64,000 nt of DNA from Anaerolineales bacterium HSG24 (lineage in GTDB: Bacteria; Chloroflexota; Anaerolineae; 4572-78; J111), in contig JAUCGB010000002.1 in the NCBI GenBank assembly GCA_030377895.1, positions 1 to 64,000 on the forward strand, given 5' to 3'. The position numbers and the translations under genes were made by a program. This document shows positions 24,060 to 50,686 of the stretch, in pieces; within the stretch, counting starts at the first letter, position 1; every line of letters begins with the position of its first letter. The notes under the pieces were generated by a model. The model had not been told where the DNA came from, made no database searches, and saw only the letters and a list, made by a program, of their open reading frames with translations.

Positions 24060-24511
24060 AGTTAAACCTCCTTCTCTTAATTATAGTACAAATGGGCAAA
24101 TGGGCGAATGGGACGTGTGTAACACCTTCGAGCTACGCACCTCGCAGGAGGCAGAGTTGTTCTCCTCCGAGGTGTGCAGTTTTCCTGGTAGTGTTGTTAT
24201 CTTGACTGATGACGCATCGGAATCAATCCCGATGCTAAAAGCTAAAGCAGGCTGAAGCCAGCACCAATGGCACTAGCTACGCGTCGCTATTTAGGCCGCT
24301 TTTAGCGGTCTTGAGCTTTTAGCCTTGTGGCTTTAGCCCAAGGCTATCAGTCAACAGGTCAACACTACCGTTTTCCTACGTGCCCGAATGGGTATCGGAG
24401 GTGTTGGCATGAAATGAAATAACGCGTCTCGTTCCCAACAGGAAACGAGACGCGTTTTCATTCAACGAGACGCTTTTTCATTCAGCGCGAAGCCTCCCCG
24501 TAGGGGGACAA
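24060..24511. repeat. Gene-free stretch of mixed palindromes
   Basis: Contains a hairpin of GCACCTCGCAGGAGGC and CCTCCGAGGTGTGC (about 24136-24179), GCTAAAGC / GGCTTTAGC arms (about 24238-24345), and GCGTCTCGTTCCC / GGAAACGAGACGC (about 24424-24453), then GCGCGAAGCCTCCCCG. No gene is seen. Confidence 0.6.
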
Positions 24512-24817
24512 TTAATTCACGTCCGCGTCCTCCCACCAATCGCTGTCTTTACGAGGTCGCCGTTTGGGCGGTTTATCGGGAGCAAGCGGCTTAAGATCAT
24601 TGTGCTTGAGCAGACGTTTTATTTCCGCCTGCAAGTGAATCCTCTCTTGTTTTGCCTCTCGCAGGGCCTTGTCCTGCTTGTTTTGTGTTTTTTTGATCGA
24701 TGCGGTCTCTTGCCAAAGTGACTTGATTTGGCAAATTGTGCGACCAATCGCCATCTCTGGCTTAATTTGTTCGTGTGTCCACTCTGTGATCAATTTTTTT
24801 AACTCTTTATTGATCAT
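24512..24817 (-). CDS. Small coiled-coil basic-tail protein, diverged paralogue (cassette copy 1)
   Basis: A 101-aa protein of unknown function. The N-terminal half (KKLITEW...EMAIGRTICQIKSL) aligns with the two nearly identical proteins at 32642 and 47171 (KKLLNKW...EMAIGHQLQHISML). A helical heptad-rich middle follows, and a Pro/Lys/Arg tail (PPKRRPRKD) suggests nucleic-acid contact. It lies 140 bp behind the terminator of the structured RNA on the same strand, as the other two do at greater distance. No good Shine-Dalgarno site precedes the ATG. Protein divergence is much larger than that of the RNA. Confidence 0.65.
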   Translation of the reverse strand: MINKELKKLITEWTHEQIKPEMAIGRTICQIKSLWQETASIKKTQNKQDKALREAKQERIHLQAEIKRLLKHNDLKPLAPDKPPKRRPRKDSDWWEDADVN

Positions 24818-24956
24818 AAGATTTAGGGGAGGAGGATGTAGGAAAGGTTACAACAACCTCCGAAACATTCCCTGCGCCCTCCTCTAGCCTCCTTTTTTGT
24901 TCCTGATAAGGAGTGCAAAACTCGCTTTGCAGGCAAGCCTTGCACTCCAGATTAAA

Positions 24957-24990
24957 TAAAAAAACCTCCACGGTGATTGCACCGTGGAGG
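24957..24990 (-). terminator. Intrinsic terminator of the structured RNA, copy 1
   Basis: Perfect 11-bp stem CCTCCACGGTG with a 4-base loop, followed on the minus strand by seven T. Confidence 0.85.
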
Positions 24991-25212
24991 TATAGATTCC
25001 AGCCTGTAACATGGGTTCAGTTGGACAAGTTGTTTAGCCGCCCTGCCGTTTGGGATGGCGCTTATAAGGCCATGCTTATTTACGTACAGGGTAGCCGAAC
25101 TGTCTGCCTAACGACAAACACAATGTTATAATCGGTCTCGCCTCACGGTGATCTGATCACCGGTGTGGAGTTTGGAGTCTGCTCCTCTTTGTGGGGAGTG
25201 ACTCCATCCAAT
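24957..25212 (-). ncRNA. Putative structured RNA, cassette copy 1
   Basis: About 255 bp conserved in three copies (31538-31812 plus, 48168-48420 minus). In RNA sense: hairpin GGAGTC-A-CTCC...GGAG-CA-GACTCC, then CGGTGATC-A-GATCACCG, then a long imperfect stem (TAACAT...ATGTTA closing, GACAGTT/AACTTGTC, CCCTG/CAGGG, ATGGC/GCCAT), and a perfect intrinsic terminator. Stems are kept while loops differ among copies (the second hairpin has three different loops), which supports RNA structure. It resembles no RNA class I can name. A candidate promoter TTGCCA-17-TACAAT lies just outside the block. It could be a trans-acting RNA or an attenuating leader of the small gene downstream. Confidence 0.6.
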
Positions 25213-25295
25213 AGAGAGTAAGTTTTAACGTGACTGAATTGTAATACAGTTTTGGTGAATTGGCAAATTGGCGAGTAGTTAATGAAAAAGAGGCG

Positions 25296-25425
25296 TTGCG
25301 CGTTTCGACATCGCCTTCGACAAGATTTCGGCGTGAGCTACATCGCGCCGCCTTCGACAGGCTCAGGCTACGTAGCTCAGTCGAACGCTCAGGCTACGTA
25401 GCCTGAGCCTGTCGAAGGCGAACTA
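25296..25425. repeat. REP-like TTCGACAGGCTCAGG cluster
   Basis: Several arms of CCTTCGACAGGCTCAGGC and GCCTGAGCCTGTCGAAGG, together a long hairpin. The stretch to 25600 holds GTTTGGGAACG palindromes and no gene. Confidence 0.65.
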
Positions 25426-31320: not shown

Positions 31321-31460
31321 CTTGCTACCCGACAAGTAGTTTAGGGAAAGCTAAAACGGTAACACGAGATTCACGGAGATACACAGAGAAAAAATAAATC
31401 TCTTTTTTAAAAAACTCTGTGTTAATTAGCCTAGTCTAAAAATTTTTGTCGGGTAGTAAG
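31321..31460. mobile_element. Family D MITE-like palindrome, copy 3
   Basis: CTTGCTACCCGACAAGTAG to TTTTGTCGGGTAGTAAG, 140 bp, abutting xisI on one side and the structured-RNA cassette on the other. No target duplication is visible. Confidence 0.7.
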
Positions 31461-31502
31461 TCGAAACGCGCAACGCCTCTTTTTCATTAACTACTCGCCA
31501 AT

Positions 31503-31531
31503 TTGCCAATTCACCAAAACTGTATTACAAT
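31503..31531 (+). promoter_or_regulatory. Candidate promoter of the structured RNA, copy 2
   Basis: TTGCCA, 17 bp, TACAAT. The same pair at the same distance occurs in copy 1; in copy 3 the -10 region reads TTATACT. It would start an RNA of about 275 nt ending at the terminator. Confidence 0.4.
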
Positions 31532-31537
31532 TCAGCC

Positions 31538-31812
31538 ACGTTAAAACTTACTTTCTATTTGGATGGAGTCACTCCCCATAACGAGGAGCAGACTCCAAAC
31601 TCCACTCGGTGAGATCATCACCGTGAGGCGAGACCGATTATAACATTGTGTTTGTCGTTAGGCAGACAGTTCGGCTACCCTGTACGTAAATAAGCATGGC
31701 CTTATAAGCGCCATCCCAAACGGCAGGGCGGCTAAACAACTTGTCCAACAGAACCCATGTTACAGACTGGAATCTATACCTCCACGGTGATTGCACCGTG
31801 GAGGTTTTTTAT
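31538..31812 (+). ncRNA. Putative structured RNA, cassette copy 2
   Basis: Same conserved block as 24957-25212. Hairpins GGAGTC/GACTCC (31565 on), CGGTGA-GATCA-TCACCG (about 31607-31623), long imperfect stem 31641-31762, and terminator 31779-31810. The block is shared with copy 1 out to 31461 (about 350 bp). A conserved 50-bp stretch (AAAAAAGGAGGTTAGAGGAG...) follows the terminator in all copies. The linked small gene is 830 bp downstream because a TA-target element, an F2 palindrome and two 103-bp elements lie between. Confidence 0.6.
31779..31810 (+). terminator. Intrinsic terminator of the structured RNA, copy 2
   Basis: Perfect 11-bp stem CCTCCACGGTG, loop ATTG, then six T. In RNA sense copies 1 and 3 have the loop CAAT, the reverse complement. 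Confidence 0.85.
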
Positions 31813-31957
31813 TTCTATATTTCTTTGTTTTAGTACATAGGAATAAAAAAGGAGGTTAGAGGAGAGCGCAGGGAATATTTCGGAGGTTGCTTGTCACTTT
31901 TCACATGTCGGCATGGTTCATTCTCCGTTAAGTTTGCTTTACAAATAAAACATTGTA

Positions 31958-32055
31958 TAGATGTTCAGATAAACATTTTCAGCCGTTACCTTCCCGCAAG
32001 TTTAGAACTTGCGGGAAGGTTGGTCTTGAATTGAAAACCATTATCTGAAAGACTG
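31958..32055. mobile_element. Family H element (98 bp) inserted at TA
   Basis: Ends TAGATGTTCAGATAA and, inverted, CAGTCTTTCAGATAA, flanked by TA on both sides. The inverted sister locus near 48021 lacks it and reads straight across (CACCTACAATGG), which gives the empty site. The middle is a CTTCCCGCAAG hairpin. Confidence 0.8.
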
Positions 32056-32155
32056 TAGGTGACGCTTGTAGCGTCACTAGTTGCTAAATAAACGCCGTAA
32101 TACCCCCAAGCAATACAGGCGAACGGTCATTGTCACGCTACAAGCGTGACCTACA
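32054..32155. repeat. F2 palindrome in cassette copy 2 (102 bp)
   Basis: TGTAGGTGACGCTTGTAGCG and CGCTACAAGCGTGACCTACA arms. Other copies 33101-33201 and 47924-48025. Confidence 0.75.
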
Positions 32156-32179
32156 TCGTCTTGTGCATGTTTGAGGAGT

Positions 32180-32234
32180 TCGCCTTCGACAAGTTCAGGC
32201 TACGTCTCGTCGCCTGAGCTTGTCGAAGGCGAAA
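32180..32234. repeat. REP-like TTCGACAAGCTCAGG palindrome
   Basis: TTCGCCTTCGACAAG...CTTGTCGAAGGCGAA hairpin, mirrored in cassette copy 3 at 47847-47900. Confidence 0.65.
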
Positions 32235-32291
32235 CGGGCAACTTATTTAATTTCCGATTCCTAAATAGGTTAATCGTTGCTCTACGAAATA

Positions 32292-32394
32292 GGCTATCAA
32301 CTTAACGTGCGACAGATAATATCGTAACACAGTCTTTAGACTGTGCGGCACAGGCTGAAGCATGTGCTACATGTCTCGGCTTACGTTGATAGCC
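32292..32394. mobile_element. Family I 103-bp palindromic element, unit 1
   Basis: Ends GGCTATCAAC and GTTGATAGCC. ACGAAATA lies directly on both sides (32284-32291, 32395-32402), an 8-bp target duplication. It contains the CACAGTCTTTAGACTGTG hairpin. Confidence 0.72.
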
Positions 32395-32433
32395 ACGAAA
32401 TATGAAGAACAACGATACAGTTATGAATAGCAG

Positions 32434-32536
32434 GGCTATCAACTTAACGTGCGACAGATAATATCGTAACACAGTCTTTAGACTGTGCGGCACAGGCTGA
32501 AGCATGTGCTACATGTCTCGGCTTACGTTGATAGCC
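32434..32536. mobile_element. Family I 103-bp palindromic element, unit 2
   Basis: Essentially the same as unit 1, in direct orientation 39 bp further on; the pair is probably a tandem duplication. Both units also occur in cassette copy 3. Confidence 0.7.
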
Positions 32537-32641
32537 ACGAAATATGAAGAATAGCAGAACAGGCAAAGCAAGCATTGCATTCCGCCTGCAACTCATAATT
32601 CTTCATTTTTCATTCCTAATTCTTACAAAGGAGGTAAAACC

Positions 32642-32920
32642 GTGAGTACAGAATCAATCAAAAAGCTATTGAACAAGTGGCAAGTAGAAGACCTGACCAT
32701 CGAGATGGCGATAGGGCATCAGCTTCAACATATAAGCATGTTACACGATACCGACCGTCAAGCTAACATCCAGCGTCATCAAATGATGGTCATGCTCAAA
32801 GAGATTCAAACCACGCTCAAAAGTCTGCGGCACGATGTAGACGCGCTCATCGCCCATACGGGCATGCCGCCCACGCCCCCAAAAGGGAAGCGCGGGCCAA
32901 GAAAAAAAGATGGTGACTAG
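32642..32920 (+). CDS. Small coiled-coil basic-tail protein (cassette copy 2)
   Basis: A 92-aa protein of unknown function. GTG start with AAAGGAGGT 6 bp upstream. N-terminal block KKLLNKW...EMAIGHQLQHISML is shared with the 24512 paralogue; a helical middle with heptads (MVMLKEIQTTLKSLRHDV) and a C-terminal PPKGKRGPRKKDGD tail follow. It differs by one residue from the protein at 47171. The strong ribosome site, own terminator and threefold pairing with the same RNA argue for a real gene. A nucleic-acid binding or RNA-partner role is only suggested by the tail and the linkage. Confidence 0.75.
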   Translation: MSTESIKKLLNKWQVEDLTIEMAIGHQLQHISMLHDTDRQANIQRHQMMVMLKEIQTTLKSLRHDVDALIAHTGMPPTPPKGKRGPRKKDGD

Positions 32921-32961
32921 TCGTTAAAAAACGTCACCCATCGACATGCAACACAAAAAGG

Positions 32962-32990
32962 CGCGGGAAAGAACCCGCGTCTTTTTCTTT
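32962..32990 (+). terminator. Intrinsic terminator of the small gene
   Basis: CGCGGG-AAAGAA-CCCGCG stem followed by TCTTTTTCTTT. Confidence 0.8.
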
Positions 32991-33100
32991 GGGCATTGTA
33001 GTAAAAATAGTCAATTTGGGCAAATTGTTTGATACTGCGGAGATATTCAGACAGGTAAATTATGAGGCTAATATCGGGAAATTGGTCATCTCCTGATAGA

Positions 33101-47170: not shown

Positions 47171-47449
47171 TTAGTCTCCATCTTTTTTTCTTGGCCCGCG
47201 CTTCCCTTTTGGGGGCGTGGGCGGCATGCCCGTATGGGCGATGAGCGCGTCTACATCGTGCCGCAGACTTTTGAGCGTGGTTTGAATCTCTTTGAGCATG
47301 ACCATCATTTGATGACGCTGGATGTTAGCTTGACGGTCGGTATCGTGTAACATGCTTATATGTTGAAGCTGATGCCCTATCGCCATCTCGATGGTCAGGT
47401 CTTCCACTTGCCACTTGTTCAATAGCTTTTTGATTGGCTCGGTACTCAC
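47171..47449 (-). CDS. Small coiled-coil basic-tail protein (cassette copy 3)
   Basis: A 92-aa protein, the same as that at 32642 except Pro for Ser at residue 5. GTG start behind AAAGGAGGT. It lies in the inverted cassette copy, with its terminator at 47101-47129 and the structured RNA 720 bp upstream on the same strand. Features as in copy 2: EMAIG block, heptad helix, basic Pro/Lys/Arg tail. Function unknown. Confidence 0.75.
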   Translation of the reverse strand: MSTEPIKKLLNKWQVEDLTIEMAIGHQLQHISMLHDTDRQANIQRHQMMVMLKEIQTTLKSLRHDVDALIAHTGMPPTPPKGKRGPRKKDGD

Positions 47450-47542
47450 GGTTTTACCTCCTTTGTAAGAATTAAGAATGAAAAATGAAGAATTATGAGT
47501 TGCAGGCAGAGTGCAATGCTTGCTTTGCCTGTCCTGCTATTC

Positions 47543-47645
47543 GGCTATCAACGTAAGCCGAGACATGTAGCACATGCTTCAGCCTGTGCCGCACAGTCTA
47601 AAGACTGTGTTACGATATTATCTGTCGCACGTTAAGTTGATAGCC
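47543..47645. mobile_element. Family I 103-bp element in cassette copy 3, unit 2 equivalent
   Basis: GGCTATCAAC...GTTGATAGCC, the mirror of 32434-32536. Confidence 0.7.
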
Positions 47646-47683
47646 CTGCTATTCATAACTGTATCGTTGTTCCTCATATTTCG

Positions 47684-47786
47684 TGGCTATCAACGTAAGC
47701 CGAGACATGTAGCACATGCTTCAGCCTGTGCCGCACAGTCTAAAGACTGTGTTACGATATTATCTGTCGCACGTTAAGTTGATAGC
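47684..47786. mobile_element. Family I 103-bp element in cassette copy 3, unit 1 equivalent
   Basis: Mirror of 32292-32394; TATTTCGT follows on both sides as the 8-bp duplication, with one side shifted by a base change. Confidence 0.65.
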
Positions 47787-47846
47787 TTATTTCGTAGAGC
47801 AACGATTAACCTATTTAGGAATCGGAAATTAAATAAGTTGCCCGTT

Positions 47847-48025
47847 TCGCCTTCGACAAGCTCAGGCGACGAGACGTAGCCTGAGCTTGTCGAAGGCGAA
47901 CTCCTCAAACATGCACAAGACGATGTAGGTCACGCTTGTAGCGTGACAATGACCGTTCGCCTGTATTGCTTGGGGGTATTACGGCGTTTATTTAGCAACT
48001 AGTGACGCTACAAGCGTCACCTACA
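47847..48025. repeat. REP-like palindrome (47847-47900) and F2 palindrome (47924-48025)
   Basis: Same elements and order as 32054-32234 on the other strand. The F2 end here is intact where copy 2 carries the family H insertion. Confidence 0.7.
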
Positions 48026-48167
48026 ATGGTTTTATTTGTAAAGCAAACTTAACGGAGAATGAACCATGCCGACATGTGAAAAGTGACAAGCAACCTCCGA
48101 AATATTCCCTGCGCTCTCCTCTAACCTCCTTTTTTGTTCCTACGTGCTAAAATAAAGAAATATAGAA

Positions 48168-48420
48168 ATAAAAAACCTCCACGGTGATTGCACCGTGGAG
48201 GTATAGATTCCAGCTTGTAACATGGGTTCAGTTGGACAAGTTGTTTAGCCGCTCTGCCGTTTGGGATGGCGCTTATAAGGCCATGCTTATTTACGTACAG
48301 GGTAGCCGAACTGTCTGCCTAACGACAAACACAATGTTATAATCGGTCTCGCCTCACGGTGAGCTTCTCACCGGGTGGAGTTTGGAGTCTGCTCCTCTTG
48401 ACGGGGAGTAACTCCATCCA
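48168..48420 (-). ncRNA. Putative structured RNA, cassette copy 3
   Basis: Third copy of the conserved block. The 5' hairpin reads GGAGTT/GACTCC (a G-U pair replaces C-G), and the second hairpin is CGGTGAG-AAG-CTCACCG with a loop unlike copies 1 and 2; the stem positions hold. The terminator is at 48176-48201 with a following T-tract on the minus strand. The upstream promoter-like region differs from copies 1 and 2 (TTATACT). The linked small gene is at 47171. Confidence 0.6.
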
Positions 48421-48619
48421 ATAGTTAAGTAAGTTTGAATGTGGCTGGAGTATAACAAGGTTTTGGCAAATTGGGCAGTAGTAAATGGAAAAGACGCGTT
48501 TCGGCGAGTTTGGGTGAGGGAGAATAGCGAATTGGCGAATTTGAATCGTCCGAATCGCGTCGTCGTTGCTATGTGGTTAAAAAAGGATGTAAATAAGAAA
48601 TTAAAAGCTGAATGATAAA

Positions 48620-48784: not shown

Positions 48785-50686
48785 ATGCTAGACATATCAC
48801 CACAACAATTACGTCAATTACATAAAATTCTCGAAATTTGTGCGCCTATTGATAGTAATGAAGGATTTCGTGCAGTTTTTGTTGATTCTCGAATCAGTAT
48901 GTGGCGTAACGATTTACCAGAAGCTACCAAGATAACAAAACGTATTGATTTGGTGATAGATTTTCTACGAGGTAGATATGATGACAATCAGCAAAATGCA
49001 TTAATTTTGCTATTACACGTTCTTGCGGACAGAATCTCAGAGGGAGATAGTTGCAAACACAAACTTTTAAATCTTGCTCAAGGACTTGAAAATAAACAAC
49101 ACAAAAAATTTGCTTTCTCTGGGTCTAGCCCTGCAACTTATGTTGACAAGAGCAAGAAATTTTTCATTAACTTGCTTTCCAATAAGCAATTTGTAATACT
49201 TTTGCTACTGGTATGCTTTACTTTTACCATAGCTATTTATGGCCCAAGTTTTTATCATTGGTGGATGAATAAAGCCAATGAAGACGAATCACTAATAATT
49301 CTAATACCTTATTCAGGACGATTTGCAGAATTAGAGTTCTCACCTGAGCGAGTAATTCGAGACTCTCTCCAAACACAAGTTGAGGAGCTTGTAAGAGAGG
49401 GATACAATATTCGCCTAGAGATATGGACACAAGCAGTTAGTACAGCACAAGAAGCTCGTGAAATTGGTCAGCTTTATCAAGCGACACTCGTAATTTGGGG
49501 AGAATTTGATGATGTCATTGGAATTCGTACATTTATTGAAATTCTTCCAGAGTTGCCATCTTTTGATATTCAGCAAAGTGGAAGTTTCCTTACACTCTCA
49601 CCGTATGTACTCAGACAATCTACAGTTGTTAGCGAAAACACCTTACCAATAGACGCTTTGCAGGAATGTTTGGGTCAAGACTTGGCACATTTAGCCGATT
49701 ACTCTGTTTTACTGTCATTAGGTATTGTGGATATGGCTTGGTCATCGCCTGAACGAGCCGAAGATTTATTCTCACAAGCAATTGAGGTAGTAGAAGCTCC
49801 CCATATCTGTCAGTGGAACTCTGATCAGGCTTACTACTGGCGAGGCACGGCACGTATGATGCAAGATCGCTATTCAGATGCTCGATATGATTTTGAGCAA
49901 GCTGTGCAAGCAAACCCGGACTTTTGGCCAGCGTTTGCACAGCTTGGTAGTGCTAACCTGGCTCTGGGGCAGCCTGATGAAACATATTTCCAGGTTGCTC
50001 TCAAGCATATTCCTCCAGATGACATCGCTAATCGCGTGATTATTCACAGCAACTTGTGTCTGGCACGCATGCCAGGGGATACTCCAGGCGACACCCTGGC
50101 TTGCTATCGTACTGTGAAAGAAGAAATCGGAGACAAGTCGATACCTTCGGAAGTGCAGGTGTTATATCTCATCCACTTGGGATATTGGTACCATCTACAA
50201 AAAAACTGCAACGAGGCTGAACGTCTTTATGATGAGGCTCTAGCGTTCCTGGATGAAGACAAGTTTCCAAGGGCAGTTGCCCTCGTTGAGGAAAACAAAG
50301 GATTAGTTATGCTATGTCAAAAAGAGTATGACCAAGCTGATCAGCATCTTGCCCACGCAAAAATCCTCTACCAAGAAAACGACCAAGTGGTTAGTATGGC
50401 TCGTGTACAAATTCGTATTGGAATGGTGGATTACTTGCAACGTAAACCATCTGCCCCCTCGAAATTTAACGAGGCATTGACGTTAGCAAAACAGGCATCA
50501 TCCCTGTACTACCAAGCATGGGCAAACATCGGCTTGGGTCTGACAGCGGAACAGAATGACAATGCTGAAGTAGCTTGTCAGTATTATCAACAAGCATTGA
50601 ATTTGCTTGAGGATTTAAATTCCCCTGAAATTAAAATGGTGCAGGATCGTATGAAGGAAAGCGCGTGTGAAGCCTTTATACCATAA
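48785..50686 (+). CDS. TPR membrane protein with adaptor-like N-terminus
   Basis: A 633-aa protein. Residues about 5-105 (LRQLHKILEICAP, ITKRIDLVIDFLRGRYDDNQ, ALILLLHVLADRISEGDSC) look like the helical effector-associated (EAD-type) adaptor domains that open many bacterial conflict and signalling proteins; this is by appearance only. TM about 133-155. An outside alpha/beta part about 165-260 (LIILIPYSGRF, ATLVIWGEFDDV) resembles the TolB-N-like segments in other TPR proteins. TPRs fill about 310-620. First gene of a likely three-gene operon, about 140 bp behind a consensus-like promoter. Function unknown. Confidence 0.75.
   Translation: MLDISPQQLRQLHKILEICAPIDSNEGFRAVFVDSRISMWRNDLPEATKITKRIDLVIDFLRGRYDDNQQNALILLLHVLADRISEGDSCKHKLLNLAQGLENKQHKKFAFSGSSPATYVDKSKKFFINLLSNKQFVILLLLVCFTFTIAIYGPSFYHWWMNKANEDESLIILIPYSGRFAELEFSPERVIRDSLQTQVEELVREGYNIRLEIWTQAVSTAQEAREIGQLYQATLVIWGEFDDVIGIRTFIEILPELPSFDIQQSGSFLTLSPYVLRQSTVVSENTLPIDALQECLGQDLAHLADYSVLLSLGIVDMAWSSPERAEDLFSQAIEVVEAPHICQWNSDQAYYWRGTARMMQDRYSDARYDFEQAVQANPDFWPAFAQLGSANLALGQPDETYFQVALKHIPPDDIANRVIIHSNLCLARMPGDTPGDTLACYRTVKEEIGDKSIPSEVQVLYLIHLGYWYHLQKNCNEAERLYDEALAFLDEDKFPRAVALVEENKGLVMLCQKEYDQADQHLAHAKILYQENDQVVSMARVQIRIGMVDYLQRKPSAPSKFNEALTLAKQASSLYYQAWANIGLGLTAEQNDNAEVACQYYQQALNLLEDLNSPEIKMVQDRMKESACEAFIP

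Follow-up and report, generated by a model that had tools for sequence, protein, structure and literature searches.

A multicopy structured RNA with an intrinsic terminator upstream of small coiled-coil genes in Anaerolineales bacterium HSG24: a candidate leader in the place of an XRE repressor

Introduction

In a 64,000-nucleotide stretch of the genome of Anaerolineales bacterium HSG24 (GenBank assembly GCA_030377895.1, contig JAUCGB010000002.1, positions 1 to 64,000; here called the window), a block of DNA with conserved hairpins and a terminator recurs three times, each time with a small gene further down on the same strand. What is this block, and does the gene beyond it belong to it? An earlier note, made from the letters of the window, offered two guesses, a trans-acting RNA with a protein partner or an attenuator leader. 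Here we describe the RNA, its copies and the genes that accompany it, and weigh these and other explanations.

Results

Matches to RNA models placed the three blocks at 24959-25214 (minus strand; 113.4 bits with R1 and 235.7 bits with R2), 31556-31810 (plus) and 48170-48424 (minus), at the places and on the strands given in the earlier note, with 92.5-96.5% pairwise identity. Its count of three proved too low for the genome, which holds about a dozen copies: whole-genome searches gave 13, of which 11 are near-complete (the set of 11 used for stem counts includes the copy of the sister species) and two, on contigs C76 and C194, are cut by contig ends. The near-complete copies of this genome lie on contigs C89 (three), C172, C56, C63, C25, C53, C64 and C72, whilst the sister species HSG25 (genome G011) has one, on contig C36. 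Since the two genomes are 75% and 80% complete, these copy numbers are minima.

Scanning 298 genomes of the class, and 25 of the order, with the RNA model gave no further copies. Occurrence in other genera was rejected, the model matches in genome G009 being due to chance and one of them lying inside a palindromic repeat. An origin from phages or plasmids was likewise rejected, as neither gave any match to the RNA and the sole viral pattern match was a chance one inside a protein-coding gene. The suggestion that no named RNA class has this shape was borne out over the whole window, where no Rfam 15 family reached its gathering cut-off and six loci gave chance-level matches only. Identity with 6S RNA was rejected because RF00013 matches other single loci, on C44 and on G011:C127, above the Rfam cut-off. 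A terminator-only remnant, very like the terminator of the RNA and lacking its 5' domain, was seen at about 690-731 of contig C116, with a hisG-like gene some 200 bp downstream.

Each near-complete copy shows the same order of parts, namely a promoter position, hairpin 1, hairpin 2, a 30-nt core, a middle part varying from type to type, and an intrinsic terminator that carries a T tract, the structured leader measuring ~180-260 nt. In copy 1, on the minus strand throughout, hairpin 1 (GGAGTC...GACTCC with an inner CTCC/GGAG) occupies 25174-25205, hairpin 2 (strands 1 and 2, CGGTGAT/ATCACCG) 25146-25162, the core GAGGCGAGACCGATTATAACATTGTGTTTG 25115-25144 and the terminator (strands 3 and 4, 12 bp followed by T7) 24964-24991; the terminators of copies 2 and 3 lie at 31778-31805 and about 48175-48202. 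The core, GAGGCGAGACNGATTATAACATTGTGTTTG and close variants of it, is almost invariant across the long and short copies and across both species.

A promoter-like site, usually of the form TTGNCA, 16-17 bp, TANNNT, is found ~21-35 bp before the RNA block in the near-complete copies. In copy 1 it reads TTGCCA-17-TACAAT (25238-25266, minus; 10/12 of the consensus, ~25 bp before the block) and is the only such site in 24480-25400; copy 2 has the same sequence at 31503-31531 (plus), the sole such site in 31400-33000, and in copy 3 the promoter is damaged by a short deletion. Most long copies have strong promoters and the short ones weaker sites, those of the short copies C64, C72 and G011:C36 being individually no better than shuffled sequence.

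Several observations indicate a structured, non-coding RNA with a terminator, as the earlier note had held. The window copies fold better than their dinucleotide shuffles (z about -3.6 to -4.2), and among the 11 near-complete copies, G011:C36 included, compensatory changes occur at four stem positions, two in the outer and one in the inner part of hairpin 1 and one, an A-T/G-C change, in hairpin 2. Copy 3 does have the G-U change in its hairpin 1, and the loops of hairpin 2 do vary, both as described earlier. Stem counts were made from hand-extracted strands, typed into a table from the aligned sequences, because MAFFT does not align hairpin 1 of the long copies correctly with that of the short ones. 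Pairing held in 122 of 128 cells over eight distinct sets, a level reached by 1 of 2000 strand shuffles, which is support and not proof, the shuffle taking no account of relatedness and the RNAs of one genome being so closely related that they offer little independent evidence. There is no conserved reading frame in the RNA, since loop lengths shift by single bases, and reading of the RNA sequences revealed no tandem repeats.

Downstream, the same-strand small genes reported for the window are there, a type-A gene of 101 aa with a basic tail at 24512-24817 (minus) after copy 1, and type-B genes of 92 aa at 32642-32920 (plus; tail KRGPRKK) after copy 2 and at 47171-47449 (minus) after copy 3; direct adjacency does not hold, the spacers measuring 141, 831 and 720 nt respectively and reaching 878 nt in the whole family. 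The type-B spacers (31900-32600 and 47500-48050 in the window) are filled by several families of palindromic repeat, which are present at other places in the genome too. For 12 copies the downstream flank can be seen, and nine of them are followed on the same strand by a gene of this coiled-coil/AT-hook family, namely the long or intermediate window copies 1-3, C172, C56, C63, C76, C25 and C53. The RNAs concerned belong to three diverged lineages (the long type, C25 and C53). By our estimate, from ~21 such genes in 4 Mb, a same-strand family gene would fall within 1 kb by chance with a frequency of roughly 0.003 per copy, and the linkage is far above this.

The protein after copy 1 had been read as a strongly diverged version of the other two; it is rather a different paralogue or subfamily, 27% identical to the proteins of copies 2 and 3 and 83-89% identical to those of the C56, C76 and C63 copies. 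The idea that constraint acts more tightly on the RNA than on the protein did not survive either, for copies 2 and 3 share 97.8% identity in the gene and 92.5% in the RNA, whilst copies 1 and 3, with RNAs 96.5% identical, carry genes of unrelated subfamilies. RNA and gene modules have therefore been exchanged, so that comparing the two is uninformative on relative constraint. The AAAAAAGGAGG stretch said to be kept after the terminator is indeed kept (24851-24898, minus, after copy 1, where it forms the leader of the type-A gene); it is found also at C56, C63 and C172, and again at copies 2 and 3, which have no type-A gene.

RNA-linked type-B genes have a ribosome-binding leader in common with their XRE-linked relatives. 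At the type-A genes (24512-24817 in the window; C56, C63 and C76) there is no Shine-Dalgarno site at the ATG, for which reason a second control step is possible. The type-A gene is preceded by a CCTCC-rich stretch, a potential pairing partner of the AAAAAAGGAGG stretch that lies upstream of it.

The small proteins share LL..W....LTVEMAIGH.LQH as their N-terminal motif, together with a long helix and a tail, KRGRPRK, that is basic and AT-hook-like. The family has ~21 matches in this genome and 16 in G011, with more in several genera, and a match in 24 of the 298 genomes of the class. They fall in no curated family, Pfam, NCBIfam, PHROG and PADLOC gave no toxin match, no nuclease family was matched, and there was neither a PDB relative nor a fold match, so that a known fold or family was rejected; the predicted structure is a helix plus a long coiled coil. 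The family is Anaerolineae-wide and mostly without the RNA. A protein occurring mostly without the block had been named beforehand as an argument against the pairing, and in part this is what was found: most members are RNA-free, yet linkage recurs in three RNA lineages.

Across at least three genera, most of the RNA-free members have a 70-aa XRE/HTH_3 gene as their divergent neighbour, and this gene is absent at every RNA-linked member tested. Promoters differ accordingly between the two groups. Using a scan limited to the sigma-70 consensus, which weak or non-sigma-70 spacer promoters would escape, a site of at least 10/12 was found within 180 bp of 18 of 19 XRE-linked small genes (5% in shuffles) and near the gene in none of nine RNA-linked spacers, C25 having one site 321 bp upstream. 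The divergent pair of a 70-aa XRE/HTH_3 gene and a coiled-coil/AT-hook gene is itself unnamed, occurs in multiple copies both here and in the sister genome, and is found in other Anaerolineae as well (for example L104 on C120, 921-1196, and L124, L125, L130, L140 and L142).

Three copies, C64, C72 and G011:C36, all of the short form and spread over two species, have no small gene downstream. Within ~50-100 nt after each there is a second hairpin, also conserved, GTAGYACCCATC...GATGGGTGCTAC. Its outer stem varies in sequence by locus and keeps its pairing, and the hairpin occurs at only these three places in the two genomes. These copies stand at gene flanks, and at all three the RNA is absent from the matching flank in the other species; the latter are not clean empty sites, because only one flank aligns. 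The second hairpin is an 80-bp element with a GGTGGCTCC-like apical portion (L117, L118 and L139).

Discussion

The best explanation, which we offer tentatively and as nearly balanced between true and false, is that a module of promoter, structured leader and terminator controls the small genes by read-through, having replaced an XRE repressor and its promoter. As part of that explanation, and no more firmly, the structured RNA may be a genus-specific regulatory module that has been copied around the genome. The replacement is suggested because the RNA-linked genes have neither the XRE gene nor a near-gene promoter; lacking the latter, their nearest strong promoter is the one before the RNA, which places the gene behind its terminator. 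The RNA module upstream of the small gene, with its sigma-70 promoter, leader and intrinsic terminator, would then take the place of the XRE repressor and the XRE-controlled promoter. By default, transcription would stop at the terminator (strands 3:4) and yield a discrete small RNA. Were hairpin 2 to open, its 3' strand (strand 2) could pair with the 5' strand of the terminator (strand 3), and this 2:3 pairing would block the terminator and let RNA polymerase continue into the small gene. The sequences show where promoters and terminators lie, the conserved stems, the feasibility of 2:3 pairing, the linkage and the lack of both the XRE gene and a promoter close to the small gene; we infer the switching, the prior presence and loss of the XRE gene and the accumulation of terminated RNA.

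Hairpin 2 and the terminator can trade strands, and in all 11 copies strand 3 keeps a given A where strand 2 has U at one position and lacks that A where strand 2 has any other base there, whilst strand 4 does not follow; this correlation stems from two or three independent changes only. At least two separate joint changes are needed because C36 otherwise groups with C64 and C72, and C25 resembles the long forms. For the nascent RNA, seven of the eight copies tested have a 2:3 fold no more than 2 kcal/mol above the best one. Once the RNA is full-length, the terminator is preferred or roughly on a par in seven of eight (the exception being the gene-less C72), and in the long window copies it is preferred, nearest-neighbour energies being a weak guide to folding. 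Against a leader stand the three copies without a small gene and the spacers as long as 878 nt. An attenuator leader is the better-fitting of the two earlier guesses, given that a near-gene promoter is missing from RNA-linked genes and present at XRE-linked ones; the trans-acting RNA with a protein partner fits less well.

The arrangement resembles transcription attenuators such as the B. subtilis rplJL leader, which has anti-antiterminator, antiterminator and terminator strands (PMC4538822), in its promoter, its 1:2 hairpin, its possible 2:3 pairing, its 3:4 terminator and the gene beyond. It differs from them in that ~75-160 nt of structured RNA lie between strands 2 and 3, in being a multicopy module exchanged between genes and found also without a gene, and in having no known ligand or protein.

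Rather unlikely, in our view, is a stand-alone family of trans-acting small RNA genes, spread by duplication, whose terminator always works and whose adjoining small genes are passengers. A promoter position and a terminator in each near-complete copy, gene-less copies in two species, long spacers full of palindromic repeats and a near-invariant 30-nt core resembling a binding or seed region would all suit such RNAs. Passengers would not account for one gene family after nine of 12 visible copies, with those genes lacking a near-gene promoter, and among 123 candidate genes of the regions analysed no plausible target emerged, the small-gene mRNAs not being among the high-ranking partners of either the core or hairpin 1; base pairing of either part with these mRNAs was accordingly rejected. 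The size of the RNA, its promoter and terminator and a possible rod-like fold recall 6S RNA, from which it is set apart by the separate canonical 6S of this genome and its sister and by its more than 10 copies, as against one main copy per genome.

That the sequence is a non-autonomous mobile or decaying MITE-like repeat, with a promoter and terminator of no present cellular role, seems quite improbable. Compensatory stem changes and a near-invariant core among diverged copies point to function, and inspection showed no terminal inverted repeats or target duplications, even though the RNA is dispersed, all three gene-less copies sit at gene-flank sites where the other species has none, and the second hairpin element occurs only beside them. 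Coxiella burnetii provides a precedent in the small RNAs derived from its QMITE1/2 elements, which have sigma-70 promoters (PMC5896051); these are likewise dispersed, 150-400 bp long and have hairpins, whereas here no terminal repeats were seen, one gene family is linked and stems keep their pairing by compensatory changes. We think it very improbable, too, that RNA and protein form a pair like type III toxin-antitoxin systems or AbiF, in which the RNA would bind and restrain the downstream protein and the terminator would set their ratio. Published AbiF/RCd22 and ToxIN loci share the layout of promoter, non-coding RNA, terminator and small gene (PMC12373285; PMC8860590), expressed by read-through (here inferred) and without a promoter of its own, and a basic, AT-hook-like tail would suit an RNA-binding partner; the present RNA, however, has no tandem repeats, most members of the protein family adjoin an XRE gene without any RNA, and the predicted helix and long coiled coil is not toxin- or HEPN-like, with Pfam, NCBIfam, PHROG, PADLOC and PDB fold comparison giving no toxin, nuclease or endoribonuclease match.

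Returning to the leader explanation, a wider version, which we consider unlikely, is that a portable cassette of promoter and RNA switch repeatedly replaced XRE within one genus, leaving paralogues under protein or RNA control, and that a sister form of the RNA carries the second hairpin instead of a gene. If true, this would be a recent natural swap of a protein repressor for an RNA leader, with both states among the paralogues of one genome, and the origin and spread of leader-RNA control would become directly testable. Neither the RNA family nor the Anaerolineae-wide gene pair of XRE plus coiled-coil/AT-hook protein, both newly defined here, has a name. Beside copy 3, on the opposite strand and beginning ~360 bp from the RNA, lies a gene (48785-50686) for a protein with a bDLD1 (bacterial death-like domain) and TPR repeats.
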